The notes beneath the pieces are model-generated. The model did not search any database, was not told where the DNA came from, and worked only from the letters and a program-made list of their open reading frames with translations. Below, piece after piece: positions 14,493 to 23,523 of a stretch of 64,000 nucleotides of DNA. Made by a program: the position numbers and the translations under genes. Source of the DNA: Alphaproteobacteria bacterium (GTDB taxonomy: Bacteria; Pseudomonadota; Alphaproteobacteria; Rhizobiales; Rhizobiaceae); NCBI GenBank assembly GCA_024742485.1, contig JANSYK010000004.1, positions 248,001 through 312,000 on the forward strand. The letters run 5' to 3'. The first letter of the stretch is position 1, and each line of letters starts with the position of its first letter.

Positions 14493-15407
14493 ATGAGTGA
14501 CGAAACCCACACATTCCTTGAATCGCTTGGCCTGCGTGCGCAGCAAGTCGAAAGCACACTGACAAAGCTGCTGAATTCGGACCTGCGCGACGACGAGATC
14601 GCCCGCCCGAACCACTTGCTGGCCGCCATGCGGCATGGGGTGCTGAATGGCGGCAAGCGTCTGCGTCCGTTTCTGGTTCTGGAGAGCACGGCGCTTCTGG
14701 GCGGTCCGGATGATGCGGCGTTGCGGGTCGCAGCGGCGCTCGAATGCCTCCATTGTTATTCGCTTATTCATGACGATTTGCCATCCATGGACGATGATGA
14801 TCTGCGGCGCGGCCTACCGACCGTGCACAAGGCTTTCGATGAGGCGACCGCCATCCTGGCCGGCGATACGTTGCTCACCATGGCGTTTGACATCATAGCA
14901 GCGCCGCAAACACAACTGCCGGACCGGCAAAAGACCGAACTGATCCTGGCCCTTGCACGCGCGGCGGGCCTCGGCGGCATGGCTGGCGGCCAGGCGCTCG
15001 ATCTTCTGGCTGAAACCACCGACCCGGACGAAGCGGCAATCATCCGCCTTCAGGCCATGAAAACCGGTGCGCTGCTGCGCTTTGCCTGCGAAAGCGGGGC
15101 GATCATCGCATCCGCCTCGCCGACCGACCGACAGCAGTTGAAACGATTTGGCGAGGCGATCGGACTGGCCTTTCAACTTGCAGATGATCTGCTGGACGTC
15201 ACGTCCGACAGCCAGGCGCTGGGCAAGGCGGCCGGCAAGGACGCCGCCGCCGGCAAGGCCACACTGGTCGCCCTGCATGGCACGCAATGGGCACGCGAAC
15301 AGCTTTCAGGTCTCGTTGAGGAAGCCAACCGGTTGCTGGAGCCGTTTGGCGAAAGAGCGGCAATATTGAAGGCTGCAGCGGAATTCATCGCCAACCGCGA
15401 GAACTAG
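14493..15407 (+). CDS. ispA: Farnesyl diphosphate synthase (polyprenyl synthetase family)
   Basis: Condenses IPP with DMAPP and GPP to farnesyl diphosphate. The 304-residue length fits bacterial IspA. Motifs: GGKRLRPFLVL for IPP binding, the first Asp-rich motif SLIHDDLPSMDDDDLRRG, GQALDL, LQAMKTGALLRFAC, and the second Asp-rich motif FQLADDLLDVT. In many Rhizobiales a similar gene sits alone. It precedes the decayed transposase that marks the edge of the accessory island, so the island junction falls immediately after its stop. Confidence 0.93.
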   Translation: MSDETHTFLESLGLRAQQVESTLTKLLNSDLRDDEIARPNHLLAAMRHGVLNGGKRLRPFLVLESTALLGGPDDAALRVAAALECLHCYSLIHDDLPSMDDDDLRRGLPTVHKAFDEATAILAGDTLLTMAFDIIAAPQTQLPDRQKTELILALARAAGLGGMAGGQALDLLAETTDPDEAAIIRLQAMKTGALLRFACESGAIIASASPTDRQQLKRFGEAIGLAFQLADDLLDVTSDSQALGKAAGKDAAAGKATLVALHGTQWAREQLSGLVEEANRLLEPFGERAAILKAAAEFIANREN

Positions 15408-15750
15408 GCGCGGACTCATAAACACGCAGCCAAAGGCGGATCGCTGAGAGCTTTACGAAGGCCAGGAAGTTGGCGGCCCACTTCTCGTAACGCGTGGCAA
15501 TGCGGCGGCAGTGCTTGATTCGATAGAAGAACCGTTCGACCAGGTTTCGATCTCGACAGAGGTTCAGTTTGAAGCAGATCGGCCCAATGCGAGATGGCGG
15601 TCAAGACGCGGTCCGATCCGCCGGCGCACGAACCGGTTATAGCAGGTGGTGCAAGGCCCATAGCATACGGGAAGATCCCGCCACGGGGCACCCAACTTCA
15701 ATACCCAAATGATACCGTTCGGAACCCGCATGTTGGCGTTGTCGAGGAAG
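15408..15750 (-). pseudogene. Decayed IS5-family transposase
   Basis: Reading the minus strand, the first part (about 15745-15615) encodes VPNGIIWVLKLGAPWRDLP followed by YGPCTTCYNRFVRRR, the N-terminal signature of IS5-family (IS427-like) transposases. A frame shift and loss of most of the DDE core follow. In another frame (about 15570-15410) comes NLVERFFYRIKHCRRIATRY and then KWAANFLAFVKLSAIRLWL, the C-terminal signature. The element cannot encode an active enzyme. Terminal inverted repeats were not recognised. It separates ispA from the lower-GC island. Confidence 0.85.
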
Positions 15751-15812
15751 CGCTTGCTTGGCTTTTCTCAGTGACCAAAGGCTGATCTTCCCTCTCAGTC
15801 AACAAGCGTAGA

Positions 15813-17588
15813 CTAATGCGCCGCCTTGGCCGCATCAGCGATTCTACCGATAAGGTCTCCAAAATGTTGATACAGAAGAAGCTGGCCTGCATCAGAGACA
15901 ACTTCGATTTTGATCCACGGATAGGCTTCACGGTATTCTGCGATTGTCGCAATGTCGGTTGCGGGGTCTTCTGCGCCGTTGACGAACCACGTTTTGATGC
16001 TCGCACATTGCATGAGCAAATGCGACCAATCGGCTTCTGTTGCGAGTACCTCCATGGTATAGGCCTGCGCAACATCTGTGGTCTCACCAGCGATCAGTTC
16101 TGCATTTGCAAGCAGAACGGGCCGCAGCTCATCTATATTCATCAAAGCTATATCAGCCGGAGACCGCTGGTTCATCTGCCGGTACATCTCAATGACACCA
16201 ATTCGCTTGGCCAGAGCAACTGCGGCCTTGGTGGTGAATTTCAGCAAATGAGGTGCATGTCTGGCAGTTGATAGAAAGAAACGGTGCCACTTCGCCATGC
16301 CAGAGTAATGCTGGTCTCCGGGCAGACAGGGGCGGGCACAAATGCCAATGATCTCGCTAATCATCTTTGGGTGATGTGCGGCAAAATCGGCTGCAAACAA
16401 CAGGTCATTGCCTTGTGTCAGATATGGCAGCCGCGCAATGCCAAGTTGGTTCAGCAGGAACAACGTGTCATCACGGGTGGAAGCGAGAACATCTGCCTTG
16501 GGATCCAGATTGTCACTTTGGCCGTATCCTGCCCGGATCGGGCAAATGACACGGAGCCCATGCTGAAAGGCCAGTTTGAGCATCGGCTTGTGCCAACGCG
16601 CCAGACCATACCCCATATGGGAGTACAAGACAGGGGCACCCGTCGCAGGACCCATATCGTGATAGTCCAACCGGCGCCCATCGGGTAACGTGACGGACTT
16701 GAAGGGCTTCCAAACCTCGACGGTGAGCCAGTCGGTTGTATCATAGAAAGATTCTTGAGTTGCAATGTCGGTGTCTGAGTTGGTTGCATTGGAAACATCC
16801 CGCAGCGACAACACGAGGCGGATCACCTCAGACTGTGTGCGCGCGTGCATCTTGGACAGGATGGATTTGATCTGCCCCCGGACTGTGCCTTCACTTGTGC
16901 CGCGTTCCGCTGAAATGGTTTTAGCGTCCAATCCTTCGACCAGTGCGCGTACGACCCCTTGCTCGGCTGCTGTGAGACCAAACACCTCTTGCAGAGTATC
17001 CCCCAATGCAGTCTGCCAGTGATAGCGTGTTGTGACTACGAGGGCGTGTTCGTCAGTCTGTTGGGTGGTCCTGCCCACCCTCCTTATCTGAAACAACGCG
17101 GGACCAAGTTGGCCACCAAATTCGATGTTCAACAACCGGTCCGGGCGATCTGCCGTTAAGAAGACATCCCTAACGCCAGCGGCTAAGGCCTCCAATGCCT
17201 CACCTTGCAGGCGCATGTCACTCAGATTCAAACCGTCGCTGATCTCAAATGCAGATTGTGCTCCCTGATTGGAGGCCAGCACGGTCAGGTCTCGGCTGAC
17301 AATGAAGGCTGCGAGCGAATTGAAAGGTGTCAATGTTGCCGCAAGGCTGAGCTTTCCATCTCTCTCTGCGGCGCGAGACAGGAATGTCTCGGCACGGTTG
17401 AGGTGAGCTTGGTAGGCATCGTCAAAGACGTCGATGTCCTTAATGGTTTGCCGTGCCGCGCTGGCGTCCAGACCGGCGTTGTTCCAAGCATCAATGAAAA
17501 GCTCAAGCGACTGGGGATCAAGCGCGATGTCATATAGCTGATTTACGAATGCGCTTGTTTCAATGTCTTTGCTTTGGCTGTCCGTCAT
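15813..17588 (-). CDS. LuxR-type regulator fused to a catalytically incomplete alpha/beta-hydrolase domain (paralogue 1)
   Basis: A 591-residue protein in three parts: an N-terminal PAS-like region (about 1-195, with FNSLAAFIVSRDLTVLASN), a LuxR/GerE helix-turn-helix (about 205-265, FGLTAAEQGVVRALVEG then GTSEGTVRGQIKSILSKMH), and an alpha/beta-hydrolase fold (about 295-591). The hydrolase strand-turn segments are present (CPIRAGYGQSDN, ADFAAHHP), but the nucleophile elbow G-x-S-x-G is replaced by TQGNDLLF and the final catalytic His by Gln (DAGQLLLY). The acid Asp region NGAEDPATD is kept. The fold is therefore probably a ligand sensor. Start 17588 is confirmed by end-to-end alignment with paralogue 2. 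It lies downstream of the LysE exporter on the same strand. Confidence 0.87.
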   Translation of the reverse strand: MTDSQSKDIETSAFVNQLYDIALDPQSLELFIDAWNNAGLDASAARQTIKDIDVFDDAYQAHLNRAETFLSRAAERDGKLSLAATLTPFNSLAAFIVSRDLTVLASNQGAQSAFEISDGLNLSDMRLQGEALEALAAGVRDVFLTADRPDRLLNIEFGGQLGPALFQIRRVGRTTQQTDEHALVVTTRYHWQTALGDTLQEVFGLTAAEQGVVRALVEGLDAKTISAERGTSEGTVRGQIKSILSKMHARTQSEVIRLVLSLRDVSNATNSDTDIATQESFYDTTDWLTVEVWKPFKSVTLPDGRRLDYHDMGPATGAPVLYSHMGYGLARWHKPMLKLAFQHGLRVICPIRAGYGQSDNLDPKADVLASTRDDTLFLLNQLGIARLPYLTQGNDLLFAADFAAHHPKMISEIIGICARPCLPGDQHYSGMAKWHRFFLSTARHAPHLLKFTTKAAVALAKRIGVIEMYRQMNQRSPADIALMNIDELRPVLLANAELIAGETTDVAQAYTMEVLATEADWSHLLMQCASIKTWFVNGAEDPATDIATIAEYREAYPWIKIEVVSDAGQLLLYQHFGDLIGRIADAAKAAH

Positions 17589-17774
17589 TCTTGAACTTGT
17601 TTGTTTCGTCACACCGTGCAAGGGGCAACGGGAAAGCTCCTTATTAGGTATCAGATCGGAGTGGTGTGCCTGTGTCCTTAGTTTATCACATCATTGGGCC
17701 ACAGACACACCAAGTCGCACTGGATCAGGCACAAGAGTATGCTGTCGCCAATGCGCTTGCGCGCGGTGTAGGAA

Positions 17775-18386
17775 TCAAGCCAAAACCATCCACCCACCCC
17801 CGAACACAAGAAGGGATGCGAGGGAACGGTTCATAAAAGTCATGGAACGCTCTGATCTTGCCAAACGTTTCAATTGCGCCGCAAATCCAACGACCAGTGC
17901 GGCACCTGCAGCAAGGGCTGCAAATGTTGTCAGCGCCACAATCAAAAACTCTGGCATTTCAATAACACGAATATCCATCATCTCTGGTAGGACGAGCGGG
18001 AAGAGCACCATCATGTAAGGCGAGATAAAGCATGACATGAGACCGGCACCCAGCGAGCAAAAGACAGACCCTCTTGCCGCATCGCAATCGGCATTCATGT
18101 CAAACCCGCCTTTCCAGGTCCCCCGGGCGAGCCAAAGTATGTAGGCGATCATGACGTACTTGCTGTACTCGAAGACAAGTGGGGCTGATGTCAGCCATGC
18201 GCTGAGCCCAAAGCAAACTGCGGAGATGATAATGACCCCGCCAAGAGCAAAACCAAGACCAAAACCTGTGGCCCCTTTAACATCATTGCTGGCGGCCCGA
18301 ACCATCAGCATCAAAACGACGGGACCCGGTGCAATTGCGATGGCGACAAGGGTAATGAAGTAGGAAAGCGAGTCTGCAAAGGTCAT
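17775..18386 (-). CDS. LysE/RhtB-family amino-acid exporter
   Basis: Inner-membrane exporter of amino acids or related small polar molecules. The 203-residue protein has about six membrane helices and the family N-terminus with AIAPGPVVLMLMVRAASNDVK (quoted in part; the A-P-G-P motif is diagnostic) followed by GFGLGFALGG. The second half has the SPYMMVLFPLVLPEM segment. Its ATG overlaps the stop of a 42-codon ORF by 4 bp, indicating translational coupling. It lies between two paralogous LuxR/hydrolase-fold regulators, all on the minus strand; these are its likely regulators. Substrate unknown; homoserine lactones, aromatic amino acids or a product of the neighbouring enzymes are possible. Confidence 0.88.
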   Translation of the reverse strand: MTFADSLSYFITLVAIAIAPGPVVLMLMVRAASNDVKGATGFGLGFALGGVIIISAVCFGLSAWLTSAPLVFEYSKYVMIAYILWLARGTWKGGFDMNADCDAARGSVFCSLGAGLMSCFISPYMMVLFPLVLPEMMDIRVIEMPEFLIVALTTFAALAAGAALVVGFAAQLKRLARSERSMTFMNRSLASLLVFGGGWMVLA

Positions 18387-18511
18387 GACCGCACCTCCGC
18401 ATCAATGCCGATCTGCACCAATCCAAAAGCACCTAAGTAGCAGACAGAGCCAATGACCACGGTGGCTTGGTGGGGTCCAAAGTTGGAATTATGGGAAACG
18501 AGTTCGGCCAT
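18383..18511 (-). CDS. 42-residue ORF coupled to the LysE exporter
   Basis: Starts at ATG 18511 after AAAGAAGAG and ends in a TGA that overlaps the LysE ATG (ATGA). The product MAELVSHNSNFGPHQ then TVVIGSVCYLGAFGLVQIG (in part) has one moderately hydrophobic segment at residues 16-36 and one Cys. The good ribosome-binding site and 4-bp coupling argue that it is translated. It may be a leader peptide, a small membrane partner of the exporter, or a relic. I recognise no family. Confidence 0.5.
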   Translation of the reverse strand: MAELVSHNSNFGPHQATVVIGSVCYLGAFGLVQIGIDAEVRS

Positions 18512-18566
18512 GGTCTCTTCTTTCGATGTGATGTTTGGAAAGTAGAGAGCAGGCCAAAGTCCGGCA

Positions 18567-18584
18567 TCTCCCATATGGGAGATA
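18567..18584. promoter_or_regulatory. Perfect 18-bp palindrome upstream of the LysE operon (candidate operator)
   Basis: ATCTCCCATATGGGAGAT is its own reverse complement over all 18 bases and lies 56 bp upstream of the 42-codon ORF start, between paralogue 2 and the exporter operon. Length and symmetry suit a dimeric helix-turn-helix regulator such as the flanking LuxR-type proteins. Confidence 0.65.
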
Positions 18585-18647
18585 CGCGCGCAAAACTCTT
18601 ACGCAGCGGCAATTTATACGTTTAGTGAGAAGTCACACGCATGTTCG

Positions 18648-20417
18648 TCAAGTCGTGTAACGGTGCGCGATTTTGGCAAACAAGGGTATCAATTCCTGAT
18701 ACTTCTGGAACATCAGGAATTGCCCAGTTCCTTCCATGACCTTTAGCTCAATCCATGGATATGCTGCACGAATCCGTTCGACGGAAGCAAGATCAATCGT
18801 CGGGTCCTGCTCACCGAACAGAATTTGCATGGGTATATCGCGCGTTTGCAACATCAATGCGGACCAATCTTGCTCAATCGCGATATACTCCATCGCAAAC
18901 GCCTGTGCTGCATTGGTTGTGCTGCTTGCCAACATACTTGAGTTATTCAACACCACTGGGCGCATTTCGTCACTGTCCAATAAGGCAAGATCGGCAGGCG
19001 AATCTTTGCACAGCTTTTGATGCATTGTCTTCATGCCCATTCGCTTTCCCATGGCGACCGCCGCTTTGGATCCGAAATGCACTATTTGTGGCGCATACTT
19101 TGCGGTGGACATGAAGAACCTTTGCCATGCCCCCGTACCCAGCAATTGGACGTTGCCGGGCAGGCACGGGCGTGCGCAAATGCCAATCAGTTCCGGAATA
19201 ACCTCTGGTCTTTCGACAATTAGATCGACCGCAAAGACAAGATCATTGCCATGCGCGATGTAGGGTAGTTTGGAGATGCCAAGGCTATCCAGAATCCGTA
19301 GGGTGTCATTGCGTGTGGACACCATGACATCAGCGTTTGGATGCAGATTCTCGCTGTGCCCAAATCCCGCCCGGATTGGACAAATCACCCTGAGCTTATG
19401 TTGGTACGCCAGCTCGATCATGGAGCGAGACCACCGGGCCTGACAATATCCCATATGTGAGTAGAGGATCGGCGCTCCATCGGCTGGCCCCATTTCGTGA
19501 TAATCCAGCTTGCGCCCATCGGGCGTATACAAGGACCGAAAGGGCCGCCAGACTTCTTCTTCCAGCCAATTGGTGGAGACCGAACGTACCGCCGGCGCGG
19601 CTCCCGTCGTTTCGTCAGCCAACAGCGGCAAGTCCGTCATTGGTAGAACCAAGCGGATGATTTCGGACTGGGACTTCACATCCATCTTGGAAAACACGGT
19701 CTTAACCTGATCGCGGACGGTGCCTTCGCTCGTCCCGCGTGTTTTAGCTATCCCCTTGATAGTTTTGCCTTGAACCAGCGCGTGCACGATCTCACATTCA
19801 GCCGAAGTAAGGCCGAAGGTAGCTTTCAATGCATCGTCCTGCCCGGTGCGCCAGTAGCGTTGGCTGCTTACCACCAGCACTTTTGCCCCATCACCATTTT
19901 CCATTTCTGAAAGGCGGCGGATCTGCAGTAAGATGGGACTTTGTTGAGTCTGCTCATGTACCTTTAGAACGCGCTTGAAGTTTCCATCAGCGGCAATGGC
20001 TTCAACCAACGTTCTGCGAAACGCGTCCCTTTCCTCAGCTGAATGACCAATTTCGACAACTGAGTTAACTGCTTGGGGCCCCAACCACTCTTGCGCCGCT
20101 GTGTTCGCCTCAACGATCTTTCGCGCAGCGTCGACAACGAAAGCTGCCAGACTGTCAAAGTACTTTAGGAAGGATTGCAATTCGGGTTGGGGCGTCTCTC
20201 CGCGCTGCAGGAACAGATCGGCCCGTTTGAGATTGTCGTAGTAGTCTGGACCAAGCTCCTCAATGTCTTCAACGGAGCGAAGCGCAAGCCCGCGTTCCAG
20301 ACCTGCCGCATTCCACGCATCAATGAAAGCATCCAAAGATGTTGGGTCGAGGGCAACATCAAGTGTGCTGTCCACGAAAAATCCGGGTTCTCTGGCGTTG
20401 AGATATTCGTCGGCCAT
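18648..20417 (-). CDS. LuxR-type regulator fused to a catalytically incomplete alpha/beta-hydrolase domain (paralogue 2)
   Basis: A 589-residue paralogue of the gene at 15813-17588, colinear over its whole length; by eye about half the residues of the hydrolase part agree. The PAS-like N-terminus has FDSLAAFVVDAARKIVEAN. The helix-turn-helix has FGLTSAECEIVHALVQGK and GTSEGTVRDQVKTVFSKM. In the hydrolase fold the nucleophile elbow reads AHGNDLVF and the catalytic His is Gln again (GTGQFLMF), while FGEQDPTID keeps the acid. Loss of the same two residues in both copies indicates a conserved non-catalytic role. The start is ATG 20417 (TTG at 20420 also open). It is upstream of the LysE operon and may be transcribed with it. 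Confidence 0.87.
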   Translation of the reverse strand: MADEYLNAREPGFFVDSTLDVALDPTSLDAFIDAWNAAGLERGLALRSVEDIEELGPDYYDNLKRADLFLQRGETPQPELQSFLKYFDSLAAFVVDAARKIVEANTAAQEWLGPQAVNSVVEIGHSAEERDAFRRTLVEAIAADGNFKRVLKVHEQTQQSPILLQIRRLSEMENGDGAKVLVVSSQRYWRTGQDDALKATFGLTSAECEIVHALVQGKTIKGIAKTRGTSEGTVRDQVKTVFSKMDVKSQSEIIRLVLPMTDLPLLADETTGAAPAVRSVSTNWLEEEVWRPFRSLYTPDGRKLDYHEMGPADGAPILYSHMGYCQARWSRSMIELAYQHKLRVICPIRAGFGHSENLHPNADVMVSTRNDTLRILDSLGISKLPYIAHGNDLVFAVDLIVERPEVIPELIGICARPCLPGNVQLLGTGAWQRFFMSTAKYAPQIVHFGSKAAVAMGKRMGMKTMHQKLCKDSPADLALLDSDEMRPVVLNNSSMLASSTTNAAQAFAMEYIAIEQDWSALMLQTRDIPMQILFGEQDPTIDLASVERIRAAYPWIELKVMEGTGQFLMFQKYQELIPLFAKIAHRYTT

Positions 20418-20754
20418 CAATCAGTCTCTGTCTATCTCAACTACCTCGTTTTGGAGATATCTCAATGGCACACAAAGTGACACTTCTTCGCCATGGTTGA
20501 AAGACTTCTCTCGCGGGCGGAAAAGTGCTTTTCATCGAACAGGCACCTCCCGCGCGCATTTGCAGACCGAGCTCGCGAAATAAATTCACAGGGCGGGTAC
20601 CTATGAAATTAGAGGCGCGGACAATATTGGTTCTCCTAATGCTGACATTCAAACAACATGCAGCATCAGTAAAAATGGGCTCAGTAACGACCTTCGCGGC
20701 CCAACGAACAAAGGTCGGAAGAGCGGGACGAAGTTGCCCCTGGGTGCTGCCCCG
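20418..20754. other. Non-coding stretch upstream of paralogue 2
   Basis: 337 bases, AT-richer than the core. It holds a perfect 10-bp palindrome GAGATATCTC (20454-20463) and the octamer TATCTCAA twice (20433-20440 and 20458-20465), about 20-45 bp before the paralogue 2 start: a candidate autoregulatory site. It also has a loose inverted repeat ATGCTG/CAGCAT near 20640-20665. A plus-strand frame at 20525-20860 runs antisense into the next gene and is not called. Confidence 0.4.
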
Positions 20755-21546
20755 TCAACGTCCGCATTCGTTGTGTGGCAGTGTCCTCGATGCTGTTTCT
20801 AGTTCGACGCTCAGACTTGTGGCCAAGTCAAAAAACCGTCGCCGCACCGTCTCGGAATAGGGATTGGCCTTCTCAATCGCTTCAAATACTTCTGGCGCAT
20901 CGTGCTGAACCATGGAAACCGCCTCGGATAGCAAGTCAAAGCTCTTCGTTGTCATACGTGTTGGCAGCGGTCCCATTCTCAGTAGCACTTTGGCGATGAG
21001 GTGCGTGAGCCCTTGGACAATTGCTGCTTCCTGGTCGTGATCTTCGGGTGTTGTCATGATGACGGTCAGACCCAGAGCCTTGCGTAAAAACGCAGCCAGC
21101 CTCGCATGTCGTCTTCCCTGAACCGGGCAGACTGCAATTTTTAGACCCTCAATTCCTGTCGCGGCACTCTGAGGACCGAACAGGGGATGAGACGCGACGA
21201 TGTCCACATTGTTCGGTAGCAGTCGCCGCATGATTTCAGAAGGAACGACTTTGACTGAACCAACATCGACAATCAGCGCGCCAGGTTTACAAGCAACCGC
21301 GACCTTGCTGACAACTTGCTCAAATGAGGACACTGGTGCCGCAATGAGGATCACATCAGCCTGCGATACTGAGTGCAACGATGACAGACGCACTCCAAGT
21401 TGCTTTGCGGCCCAGGCAACGTCCGGGGACGGATCGTGGGCCGTTATTTCGAAATGCTGACCAAGATGAAGGGCTGCAAGTTGTCCGAATGCACCAAACC
21501 CCACAATGCCTAGCGACGTGTTTTGGCTTCTGCTGTTGTTGTCCAT
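20755..21546 (-). CDS. Prephenate/arogenate dehydrogenase family protein (TyrA-like)
   Basis: NAD(P)-dependent oxidative decarboxylase family making 4-hydroxyphenylpyruvate or tyrosine. The 263-residue protein starts at ATG 21546 after AAAGG. The Rossmann motif is GIVGFGAFGQLAALHLG; family segments ASHPLFGPQSAATGIEGLK, VCPVQGRRHARLAAFL and QEAAIVQGLTHLIAK follow, with the two conserved histidines (HPLFGP and LTH) present. No ACT or chorismate mutase domain is attached. It lies within the accessory island between regulator paralogue 2 and an amidohydrolase, away from the aro genes at 1-1570, so it is more likely a specialised pathway enzyme than the housekeeping tyrA. Confidence 0.82.
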   Translation of the reverse strand: MDNNSRSQNTSLGIVGFGAFGQLAALHLGQHFEITAHDPSPDVAWAAKQLGVRLSSLHSVSQADVILIAAPVSSFEQVVSKVAVACKPGALIVDVGSVKVVPSEIMRRLLPNNVDIVASHPLFGPQSAATGIEGLKIAVCPVQGRRHARLAAFLRKALGLTVIMTTPEDHDQEAAIVQGLTHLIAKVLLRMGPLPTRMTTKSFDLLSEAVSMVQHDAPEVFEAIEKANPYSETVRRRFFDLATSLSVELETASRTLPHNECGR

Positions 21547-21924
21547 TTTTCGACCTTTGAATTTGCCGCCCGGCACAAGGTCGATTTTATGTTGACCGCT
21601 GAAAGGGGCAGCGGAAAACCAATGATAAATTACCCGCAGCTATGGAAGCTGAGGATAGTAGTCCTGCGATGCGAAGAACGAATTCACCATGACGCCAGCG
21701 ATAAGACACCCTTGAGAGCAGAGTCAACCATATTGCGCCCTGGCGGCCATTGGCCGTGACGCAGCATTCTGGAGACATGGGCTCGGAGCCGACCTTTGCT
21801 GCAAGGTGTTGCGACGACCGGATCGCGGACGCTGCGGACATTGCAAAAGGAGCCCAAGTGCGAAAGTGTATTGTTTCGATCAGTCCATCTCTTTGGCGCC
21901 GAAGCATATGGAACGAGTGTAAGC
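21547..21924. other. Divergent intergenic region with repeat
   Basis: 378 bases between the TyrA-like gene (minus) and the amidohydrolase (plus). It contains an inverted repeat CGGCCA-T-TGGCCG near 21743 and the first copy of a 26-bp direct repeat (listed separately). No promoter could be assigned with confidence. Confidence 0.4.
21778..21803 (+). repeat. 26-bp direct repeat, left copy
   Basis: TGGGCTCGGAGCCGACCTTT followed by GCTGCA. It matches 23444-23469 at 25 of 26 positions in the same orientation and includes a perfect GGCTC-G-GAGCC palindrome. The two copies bracket the amidohydrolase gene. Confidence 0.8.
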
Positions 21925-23337
21925 ATGATAGGTTGTCCACGGCTTGCTATTCTTCGTGGTCACATGGTTGGCGGATGGGTTTTTGCCCTGTTTCTTTGTG
22001 TGCCAGTTTTTGCCTGGGCTTCTGATCTGGCAATCAGAAACGTTCACGTGTTCGATAGTTATGACGGATTTGACGATGAAACTCGATCCATCATTGTGCA
22101 CAATGGCACGATCTCTGAAGTCTTGGACAATGGGTCAGCCATTCCTTCAACGCTGAAGGTCATTGACGGCGACGGGGGATATCTGCTTCCCGGCTTCATC
22201 GACGCTCATGTCCATATTCTGGTTCCGCGATGTCAGTCCTTTTCTGTTTTTTCCCGCGGAAATGTGCAGTTTGATCGAGCCCTCTCTGAAGAAATGATGA
22301 GTGTTCTTATCGATTTTGGGATCACGACCATACGAAGCCCCGCGACGCCAACAATGGAAGGACTTGCGCTTCGTGATGATCTCAACGCTGGACGAATAAA
22401 AGGACCATATGCACTCGCGTCAGCAGAACTCATCAATGATGGGAGGATGACCGCAGATGATCTTAGATTCTACGTTCGCAACGCCCTGCAACATAGGCCG
22501 GACTATTTCAAGGTTTATGCCGGACTCCATCCCTGGCAGGTCAAAACCGTTATCGACGAGGCCCACAAGCACGGTGTTCCCGTAATCGGGCATTTGGGGA
22601 GGACCTCATGGGCGGAAGCGATCAAACATAAGATTGACTTTCTGACACACGCGGTCTCTTGGTCCGAAAAGACACTGAAACCGGAATATCGAAAAGCCTA
22701 TCGTGAAGCGAGACACCAAGTAGGCGCCATGCGTGCCCGGCTCGATTGGCTGGAGTGGTTGGATCTCGAATCAAACGAAGTCACCTCGATGATTAAGGCG
22801 TTGGCTGCGAGCAGGGTGCCGGTCGACCCGACTTTGGTGGTCTATGACGCAAAGTTCTCCGCCCCGGACGATCGGCGATACCGTCTCAACGCCAACGTGA
22901 ATGTGGTGCCGACGCTGAAATCTGACTGGAGCGAGTGTCGCGGTCTCGCACACAACTGGACCAGGGATGATTTTAAACGGTGGCGCAGGCTGTTTCCGAA
23001 GCTGCAGTCCTTGGTCCGACTGATGCACGAGCGTGGTGTTATCCTTATGACGGGTTCTGACACTGCCAATGAGTGGGTGATCCCTGGAGAAAGCCTACAT
23101 CAAGAGTTCGAACTTCTGGTGGAAACCGGAATTCCTCCAAGGGACGTGTTAAGAATGACGGGAGCAACGGCCGCAGAAGCTCTTGGACTTGATGACCGGG
23201 GCGTCATTGGACAAGGATACAAAGCTGACTTGGTTCTACTGACAGACAATCCAGAGACAAATATCACAAACACCCGGAGTATCATTTGGGTCATGAAAGA
23301 CGGTCAGATAGTCTCAGGGCGCGCGAAATCTGACTAA
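21925..23337 (+). CDS. Secreted amidohydrolase (imidazolonepropionase/prolidase-like superfamily)
   Basis: Metal-dependent amidohydrolase, probably exported. The start is set at ATG 21925, giving 470 residues with a signal peptide (VGGWVFALFLCVPVFAWA, about residues 14-31); the frame opens at 21796 without a signal-like start. Ligands: H-x-H in LPGFIDAHVHIL, a Lys in YFKVYAGLH at the carbamylated-Lys position, His in PVIGHLG, His in FLTHAVS and Asp in LMTGSDTANEW. The C-terminal composite beta domain is typical (GQGYKADLVLLTDNP). Members cleave peptides, lactones or cyclic amides, so substrate is not predictable. It is the last gene of the accessory island and is flanked by 26-bp direct repeats. 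Confidence 0.84.
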   Translation: MIGCPRLAILRGHMVGGWVFALFLCVPVFAWASDLAIRNVHVFDSYDGFDDETRSIIVHNGTISEVLDNGSAIPSTLKVIDGDGGYLLPGFIDAHVHILVPRCQSFSVFSRGNVQFDRALSEEMMSVLIDFGITTIRSPATPTMEGLALRDDLNAGRIKGPYALASAELINDGRMTADDLRFYVRNALQHRPDYFKVYAGLHPWQVKTVIDEAHKHGVPVIGHLGRTSWAEAIKHKIDFLTHAVSWSEKTLKPEYRKAYREARHQVGAMRARLDWLEWLDLESNEVTSMIKALAASRVPVDPTLVVYDAKFSAPDDRRYRLNANVNVVPTLKSDWSECRGLAHNWTRDDFKRWRRLFPKLQSLVRLMHERGVILMTGSDTANEWVIPGESLHQEFELLVETGIPPRDVLRMTGATAAEALGLDDRGVIGQGYKADLVLLTDNPETNITNTRSIIWVMKDGQIVSGRAKSD

Positions 23338-23443
23338 AATATTGTCTCCTTCTGCATGTCAGATTGTGCATTCAATTTCCAAGCATGAAAAGGTGCTAAC
23401 ACCTGTCCATCGCCGAAAACTCATATGAAGTTCTATGTCCTTT

Positions 23444-23469
23444 TGGGCTCGGAGCCGACCTTTGCCGCA
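23444..23469 (+). repeat. 26-bp direct repeat, right copy
   Basis: Second copy of the 21778-21803 repeat with one mismatch (GCCGCA for GCTGCA). It lies 107 bp past the amidohydrolase stop and marks the apparent right end of the island, before ispG. Confidence 0.8.
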
Positions 23470-23523
23470 CAATCAACCGATGACAGCTATAGTCGGTCTG
23501 GAGGCACTGTCGGATCGAAAGCG

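Follow-up and report, generated by a model that had tools for sequence, protein, structure and literature searches.

The window, the 64,000-nucleotide stretch of an alphaproteobacterial contig analysed here, contains three open frames that follow one another on the minus strand (15813-17621, 17775-18386 and 18648-20420). The two outer frames encode regulators, P0001 (15813..17588) and P0002 (18648..20417), which are 44% identical and share an architecture of a PAS-like region, a GerE helix-turn-helix (HTH) and an alpha/beta-hydrolase fold. The open frames reach TTG codons at 17621 (P0001) and 20420 (P0002); based on the sequence and on alignment A3, the ATG codons at 17588 and 20417 are the likely starts. 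Between the two regulators lie the gene of a LysE/RhtB-type exporter of 203 aa (17775..18386, minus strand), a 42-codon remnant of a gene for a CBU_0592-like small membrane protein (18383..18511, minus strand), a -10-like element (TACTTT; 18539..18544, minus strand) with a putative promoter role, and an operator-like 22-bp palindrome (18564..18585; GTATCTCCCATATGGGAGATGC on the minus strand).

A central LuxR-type HTH and a C-terminal alpha/beta-hydrolase fold had been proposed for both regulators by the sequence-only reading, and this architecture holds. GerE scores above the Pfam cut-off of 23.5 bits in P0001 (30.0 bits; best stretch residues 216-269) and in P0002 (34.4 bits; residues 204-257), and the HTH of P0001 occupies residues 204-273 of 602. 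The Abhydrolase_1 scores are slightly below the Pfam cut-off of 25.8 bits (22.7 for P0001 and 25.4 for P0002). In the AlphaFold models, a canonical alpha/beta-hydrolase fold spans residues 298-602 of P0001, with a pLDDT of 81-98 per 10-residue block from residue 301, and approximately residues 285-590 of P0002. Correspondingly, a Foldseek search of the PDB with the P0001 model returned alpha/beta hydrolases, with 9wlv as top match (target TM 0.86). The proposed PAS-like N-terminal region fared less well: the order of strands and helices in the models agrees with it, but by sequence the assignment is weak, as the Pfam matches to PAS_4 (E 0.09) and MLTR_LBD (E 0.009) occur in P0002 only and are below cut-off. 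An autoinducer-binding domain gave no Pfam match at E 0.1 in either regulator, and no receiver domain was found in them.

Within the hydrolase fold, the residues of the catalytic triad have changed. The elbow at the strand-to-helix turn reads Q403-G404-N405-D406 in P0001 and H390-G391-N392-D393 in P0002, the acid is retained as D552 and D539, respectively, and the position of the histidine is taken by Q580 and Q567. Both copies thus carry Gly/Asp/Gln (Gly404/Asp552/Gln580 and Gly391/Asp539/Gln567) in place of a nucleophile-acid-His triad, just as had been read from the sequence. Judged by residue position in the P0001 model, no intact triad was found elsewhere in the fold, and the modelled residues 404, 552 and 580 hold no Ser/His pair. 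The same state runs through the close clade to which both regulators belong (n = 18; the window pair and 16 others), where the nucleophile position is Gly and the acid Asp is kept in 18/18 proteins, with 13 of them carrying Gln and 5 Leu in place of the His. The further claim that the two copies lost the triad in parallel does not stand. Independent loss in P0001 and P0002 was rejected, because the same residues occur throughout their clade; as the relatives of both copies share the triad-less state, the loss was inherited.

Scoring homologues at the elbow and His positions had been named beforehand as a test, and few of them keep the triad: a plausible nucleophile, acid and His are retained in just 7 of 88 proteins of the wider family and in none of the 18 of the close clade. 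The wider family ranges from triads that look complete, through partial loss, to full loss. In the close clade, G404, D406, D552, G579 and H335-M336-G337 are invariant (18/18). With the old active-site positions fixed and Ser and His gone, the pattern points to selection for binding without canonical catalysis, as the sequence-only reading had put it. The hydrolase domain could still be an enzyme with a non-standard mechanism, the regulator answering to its own product. The retained acid Asp and the invariant D406 beside the elbow would fit such an activity, but in 18/18 proteins the nucleophile is absent (Gly) and so is the base (Gln or Leu), and a dehalogenase-type Asp nucleophile would be needed at residue 404, not 406; we therefore consider an active enzyme highly improbable. 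Alternatively, the fold may merely be a scaffold for dimerisation or protein contacts while the PAS-like domain senses. Non-catalytic domains often turn into scaffolds, and the models show a PAS-like order of strands and helices. However, a pure scaffold need not retain the former active-site loops, which are invariant in 18/18 proteins, and the hydrolase part is more conserved than the PAS-like part (means of 0.69 and 0.52 in the close clade), which makes this explanation unlikely. The domain rather appears to be a worn-out enzyme fold that is reused as a sensor in a bacterial gene switch.

The product of the middle gene is a LysE translocator by Pfam (39.6 bits, cut-off 25.6); no NCBIfam equivalog cut-off was reached. 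That regulator and exporter belong together, as suggested by the sequence-only reading, is borne out by their adjacency: in 16/20 loci, the window included, the gene immediately upstream of the regulator, in the same orientation, is a LysE/RhtB gene. The four loci without an adjoining lysE are L132, L135, L137 and L141, and in L135 and L141 the regulator frame is also broken. Among 40 neighbourhoods (L083-L122), a LysE homologue occurs solely in L103 and L104, both from close-clade genomes. L122, which is outside the 20 loci and carries a close-clade-like fragment of 230 aa, has no LysE within its 11.4 kb. The common gene order is small membrane gene, lysE and regulator. The CBU_0592-like gene lies between the palindrome and lysE, is full length in 15/16 loci, and in 16/16 loci its stop sits -14 to +3 nt from the lysE start codon (taken as the nearest in-frame start). 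Three of the 15 full-length relatives were scanned, and all three match NCBIfam NF047864 (73.6-78.7 bits, cut-off 25). The 42-aa remnant of the window, whose stop overlaps the lysE start by 4 nt, gave no Pfam match; because this gene is truncated, the operon copy of the window may be partly decayed.

The 22-bp palindrome was first read in the window and afterwards matched in 15/15 other lysE loci, so that it is present upstream in 16/16 loci with 0-4 mismatches. A motif-free search of the 15 other loci, seeded from 5 of them, recovered the same element, with 14/14 others within 4 mismatches, compared with at most 3/14 in three sets of base-shuffled controls. The match is poor in L126, whose 4 mismatches were equalled by 2/100 shuffles. 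The exact 20-bp operator form gave no match in 153 loci, because every site departs from it at one or more positions, and viral contigs held no match to the operator. The palindrome might also serve another regulator, with the LuxR-type protein acting elsewhere. Its assignment to the LuxR-type protein is a prediction, and an additional palindrome, some 41 bp further upstream in 9/16 loci, implies that other regulators may act here. Against this, the exact palindrome (18-bp core) occurs a single time in the 6.87-Mb draft genome. Beyond the window, the palindrome is found with the genes of regulator and exporter in records whose titles name Rhodobacteraceae and Granulosicoccaceae, and a site of this length and symmetry fits a LuxR-type dimer. 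We regard service to another regulator as quite improbable. As regulator, exporter gene and a matching DNA site occur together, the locus suggests a dedicated small molecule that is both sensed and pumped out.

According to PMC4471428, the usual binding site of LuxR homologues is a 20-bp palindrome with its centre at -42.5. A palindrome of about 20 bp is present here, and its position near -42.5 depends on the putative -10 element, a TA being found at the corresponding offset from the operator in 14/16 loci. A consensus sigma-70 promoter was not found beside the operator. The ribosome-binding site is spanned by an inverted repeat with better pairing than in shuffled sequences; as a consensus hairpin it is weak, at -0.98 kcal/mol. 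Of 16 leaders, 8 were folded, with z below -2 in 4 and positive in 2; a search of Rfam over 15000-21500 gave no match. If the RNA hairpin is real, the transcript would have to begin upstream of the repeat, in conflict with a placement at -10/-42.5.

P0002 raises the question of a second receptor. Two regulator genes occur in at least 2/20 loci, namely the window and L131 ('Candidatus Rhodobacter lobularis'); this is a lower bound, since the contigs of L126, L129, L130, L137, L138 and L139 end near the regulator. A two-receptor circuit had been proposed from the window; in such a circuit, each of P0001 and P0002 would regulate the exporter, and each would answer to a ligand of its own. The pairing recurs in L131, which like the window holds one gene from each of two subclades. 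However, a single regulator gene is seen in 18/20 loci, even if several contigs end close by, and both second copies carry Asp or Glu at a position of the recognition helix that is otherwise Gly, or Ser in L132. Because an acidic residue replaces Gly there, the second copies may read a different site. The circuit as claimed is thus weakly supported and in our view doubtful; P0002 may instead be a diverged extra copy, possibly with an altered DNA site.

Taken together, we consider it reasonably probable that the export operon is controlled, through the 22-bp operator and in tune with a ligand, by the pseudo-hydrolase LuxR-type regulator that it encodes. P0001 would be a dimeric DNA-binding regulator of the LuxR/NarL type, whose C-terminal alpha/beta-hydrolase domain would serve as a non-catalytic ligand-binding domain. 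It would bind the palindrome ahead of its own operon, in which the CBU_0592-like membrane protein, the LysE/RhtB exporter and the regulator would be transcribed together, and export and the level of P0001 would be adjusted to how much of a small molecule is present, probably the substrate of the exporter or a relative of it. We tend to favour activation in response to the ligand, the centre of the operator lying near -42.5. A more specific version, in which the dead hydrolase pocket of this family detects a self-made molecule exported by the paired LysE/RhtB pump, is speculative. If true, this would be a small-molecule signalling or overflow-export module built on a bacterial hydrolase-to-receptor conversion.

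Receptors derived from enzyme folds have been well described in plant hormone signalling. To our knowledge, the hydrolase-type receptor fold is known mainly from there, and such conversions have rarely been traced in bacterial transcription factors. With an exporter and a definable DNA site linked to one clade, sensor, operator and ligand are directly testable, and a new metabolite or signal exported by marine Rhodobacteraceae and their relatives could come to light. Neither P0002 alone against the named genomes nor A2 against viral contigs returned relatives. No shared pathway was found among ten scanned neighbours of the wider family, which include GST, DNA-gyrase-B-type, PPK2, SMC/RecN-type, YfiO, NicO and aminotransferase genes; we read these as ordinary synteny. 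Among the matches listed in a search of non-subscription literature for LuxR-type regulators with a hydrolase fold or LysE, and for receptors derived from hydrolases, the titles and opening lines of the abstracts describe neither family nor operon.

With LuxR/NarL (GerE) regulators, the proteins share a GerE HTH above the Pfam cut-off and an approximately 20-bp palindrome in the promoter region; they differ in that the HTH is located mid-protein, not C-terminally, and the putative sensor is a hydrolase fold. Quorum-sensing LuxR proteins have an autoinducer-binding domain followed by a C-terminal HTH, an order not seen here. LysG-LysE and ArgP-ArgO likewise combine a LysE exporter with an adjacent, dedicated one-component regulator, but those regulators are LysR-type, whereas here a LuxR-type protein with a pseudo-hydrolase is accompanied by a CBU_0592-like gene in the cluster. 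For RcgR, PMC9601222 gives a predicted alpha/beta-hydrolase domain and mentions an HTH motif for its partner. The strigolactone and karrikin receptors D14, DAD2 and KAI2 are also alpha/beta-hydrolase folds in signalling, and P0002 matches D14-type structures weakly by sequence (E 4e-5 to 0.003). In DAD2, however, the triad is intact and an analogue of strigolactone is hydrolysed, as stated in PMC3531792, compared with Gly/Asp/Gln here. The same paper describes plant GID1 as a hydrolase-fold receptor without enzyme activity that has lost the active-site His, a loss shared by our regulators (Q580/Q567). GID1 holds its ligand with retained Ser and Asp, whereas here Asp is kept and Ser is replaced by Gly, and the hydrolase domain shares its polypeptide with a DNA-binding domain.

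The two LuxR-type regulators P0001 (602 aa; 15813..17588) and P0002 (590 aa; 18648..20417) share 44% identity over 587 alignment columns and flank a LysE-type exporter of 203 aa (17775..18386), with all three genes located on the minus strand. Pfam detected GerE in both regulators and LysE in the protein between them; Abhydrolase_1 scored just under the cut-off in both regulators. AlphaFold models built from the sequences of the window and of related loci displayed the same order in both proteins: a helical N-terminal part, a PAS-like region, the helix-turn-helix (HTH), a low-confidence linker and a confidently predicted hydrolase domain (mean pLDDT 82 for P0001 and 79 for P0002). This layout, together with the GerE match, bears out the proposal of the sequence-only reading that the HTH sits between a PAS-like region and a C-terminal alpha/beta-hydrolase fold. 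For P0001, the fold itself was supported by Foldseek, where the model matched alpha/beta hydrolases of the PDB, among them, within the top ten, 3v1k, by its title a His-to-Gln mutant of BphD.

The same reading held that the nucleophile elbow is replaced by QGND or HGND and the catalytic His by Gln, while the acid Asp is kept. We found this to be the case at positions 404, 580 and 552 of P0001 (elbow Q403-G404-N405-D406, Q580, D552) and 391, 567 and 539 of P0002 (elbow H390-G391-N392-D393, Q567, D539). A parallel loss in the two window copies, as also proposed, was not borne out. In the close clade of nearest relatives (n = 18, window pair included; from the 20-row alignment A3 after removal of the partial rows L138 and L139), residue 404 (P0001 numbering) is Gly and residues 406 and 552 are Asp in 18/18 proteins, and residue 580 is Gln in 13/18 and Leu in 5/18, so that all share the same Gly and Gln/Leu state and none has a full triad. 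Among the 88 proteins of a wider set, 56 have Gln and 13 have His at the His position, and a plausible nucleophile (Ser in five, Asp in L029, Cys in L032), the acid Asp and the His occur together in just seven, among the loci listed. This set is a sample and no census: its loci were fetched from four relative searches, two of which gave no more than 30 loci apiece although they had more match rows, and proteins shorter than 400 aa as well as two that aligned badly (L049 and the second frame of L091) were left out. As Ser and His are missing from all 18 close-clade proteins and intact triads are this rare in the wider set, the loss of the triad is, on these alignments, old and shared. Apparently complete triads do exist in the wider family, e.g. 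in L048 and L050, which suggests that the dead state either is derived within this family or arose repeatedly. Within the wider family, L029 and L041 carry Asp and L032 carries Cys at the nucleophile position with the His kept, resembling dehalogenase-type or Cys-hydrolase triads; in L041, the acid position is occupied by Ser. Conservation is higher in the hydrolase domain than in the PAS-like part. Despite the predicted loss of catalysis, the loops of the former active site are invariant in the close clade.

With a threshold of E 1e-30, 16 of the 297 genomes from the window's family had relatives, a count that includes the own genome; the four other genomes listed for the same genus had none. 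In a further family, taken as Rhodobacteraceae, relatives were present in 61 of 394 genomes. When the threshold was tightened to E 1e-100, close-clade members were found in only one of 289 genomes of the class, the own genome. A scan of named records yielded 20 loci, mostly titled Rhodobacteraceae or its genera; the rest were two Granulosicoccaceae MAGs, one Afifellaceae MAG, one Alphaproteobacteria MAG and L142, which matched in the HTH region only and was excluded. GC content dips at about 15500-23500 of the window (1-kb windows about 0.51-0.56 versus mostly 0.55-0.62 in the surroundings); one lower window outside the dip (0.49) lies at 13.5-14.5 kb. The lower GC and the lack of relatives at E 1e-30 in the four same-genus genomes listed suggest that this stretch was gained horizontally. 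In the subtree, one group unites P0002 with L131b, L133, L134, L136 and L137 (99% ultrafast bootstrap), P0001 falls with the other type (96%), and L132 lies outside both. Each subclade is therefore represented by one gene in the window, and likewise in 'Candidatus Rhodobacter lobularis' (L131). In the recognition helix, the second copies of both two-gene loci carry Asp or Glu, and the other rows Gly, or Ser in L132. The corresponding position of NarL contacts DNA, and the second copies in two-gene loci may read other DNA sites.

In 16 of 20 loci (the window and L123-L141), the gene immediately upstream of the regulator, in the same orientation, encodes a LysE homologue. This arrangement is absent from L132 and L137, from L135, where the regulator frame is broken, and from L141, where the regulator is in pieces. 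The 20 loci do not include L122, a fragment of 230 aa that resembles the close clade and has no LysE in its 11.4 kb. Among the 40 neighbourhoods L083-L122, some of them shortened by contig ends, a LysE homologue was found only in L103 and L104, which come from the same genomes as L131 and L129. In 15/16 loci, a full-length ORF of 103-110 codons starts 49-58 nt past the core of the palindrome described below and ends -14 to +3 nt from a lysE start (taken as the in-frame start nearest its stop). Three scanned products match the CBU_0592 membrane family (73.6-78.7 bits); membership rests on BLAST clustering for ten loci and on the translations for the others, and the copy in L133 appears degenerate. 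The window retains a remnant of 42 codons (18383-18511, minus strand) that still overlaps lysE. As the operator-to-lysE distance is 196 nt here versus 381-395 nt in 10 of the other 15 loci (in the remaining five, the lysE frame reaches further upstream), the remnant is consistent with the loss of about 195 bp in frame. Nine loci (L104, L123-L127, L130, L139, L140) share a divergent gene of one family upstream of lysE, the one scanned member being a patatin-like phospholipase; in four of these loci (L123-L126) it is followed by another shared gene, for which one member matched the endonuclease/exonuclease/phosphatase family. Beside the regulator, at window positions 15416-15810, transposase-like remains were noted by eye; a 91-aa frame therein gave no Pfam match.

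The candidate operator palindrome (18564-18585) was seen in the window and then sought upstream of lysE elsewhere. The best match to TCTCCCAWWTGGGAGA had 0-4 mismatches in 16/16 loci, and base shuffles were as good in 0/100 cases for 15 loci and in 2/100 for L126. Upstream of the regulator genes, best matches had 5-7 mismatches; the exception was a site with 3 close to the broken gene of L141. When the 15 loci outside the window were searched without a preset motif, the element was recovered, with 14/14 others within 4 mismatches compared to at most 3/14 in three base-shuffled sets (seeds, 5 of 15 loci). Mean information per position reaches 1.51 bits in the site, compared with 0.30 upstream and 0.56 downstream of it. 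The own draft genome contains a single copy of the exact 18-mer, and the closest other site there differs at 2 positions. A second palindrome, GGTATGG-N4-CCTTACC, precedes the operator core by about 41 bp, at almost fixed spacing, in 9/16 loci (L104, L124-L128, L131, L138, L140; at most 2 mismatches) and was not found in the window.

The most economical candidate account is a one-component regulator whose pseudo-hydrolase domain would serve as ligand sensor and which, controlled by this ligand, would act on its own export operon. LysE-family exporters transport amino acids and derivatives. Given this family and the invariant acids D406 and D552 near the former active site, one may speculate that the ligand is cationic or amino-acid-like.

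Immediately 5' of the small-ORF start codon, we found an inverted repeat (18492-18548, minus strand) with the ribosome-binding site in its right arm, which recurs at the equivalent place in 15 loci with paired changes between species. Pairing amounts to 77.3% of cells versus 69.5% in shuffles, of which 1/500 reaches this value, and slid controls gave 35-57%; the covariation score is 0.421 versus 0.274 (1/500). Five pairs changed on both sides, which is not unusual (151/500 shuffles). The consensus structure has a weak energy, and folding of individual sequences gave mixed results. The repeat may be an RNA hairpin or a second DNA site. As a hairpin, it would require transcription to start upstream of the left arm, so that a TA step present at a fixed distance after the palindrome in 14/16 loci could not belong to a -10 box. 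Because of this conflict, activation as the sign of regulation is only a lean. If the TA step corresponds to -12/-11 within a -10 box, the centre of the palindrome would lie at -42.5, the usual position for sites of LuxR homologues according to PMC4471428.
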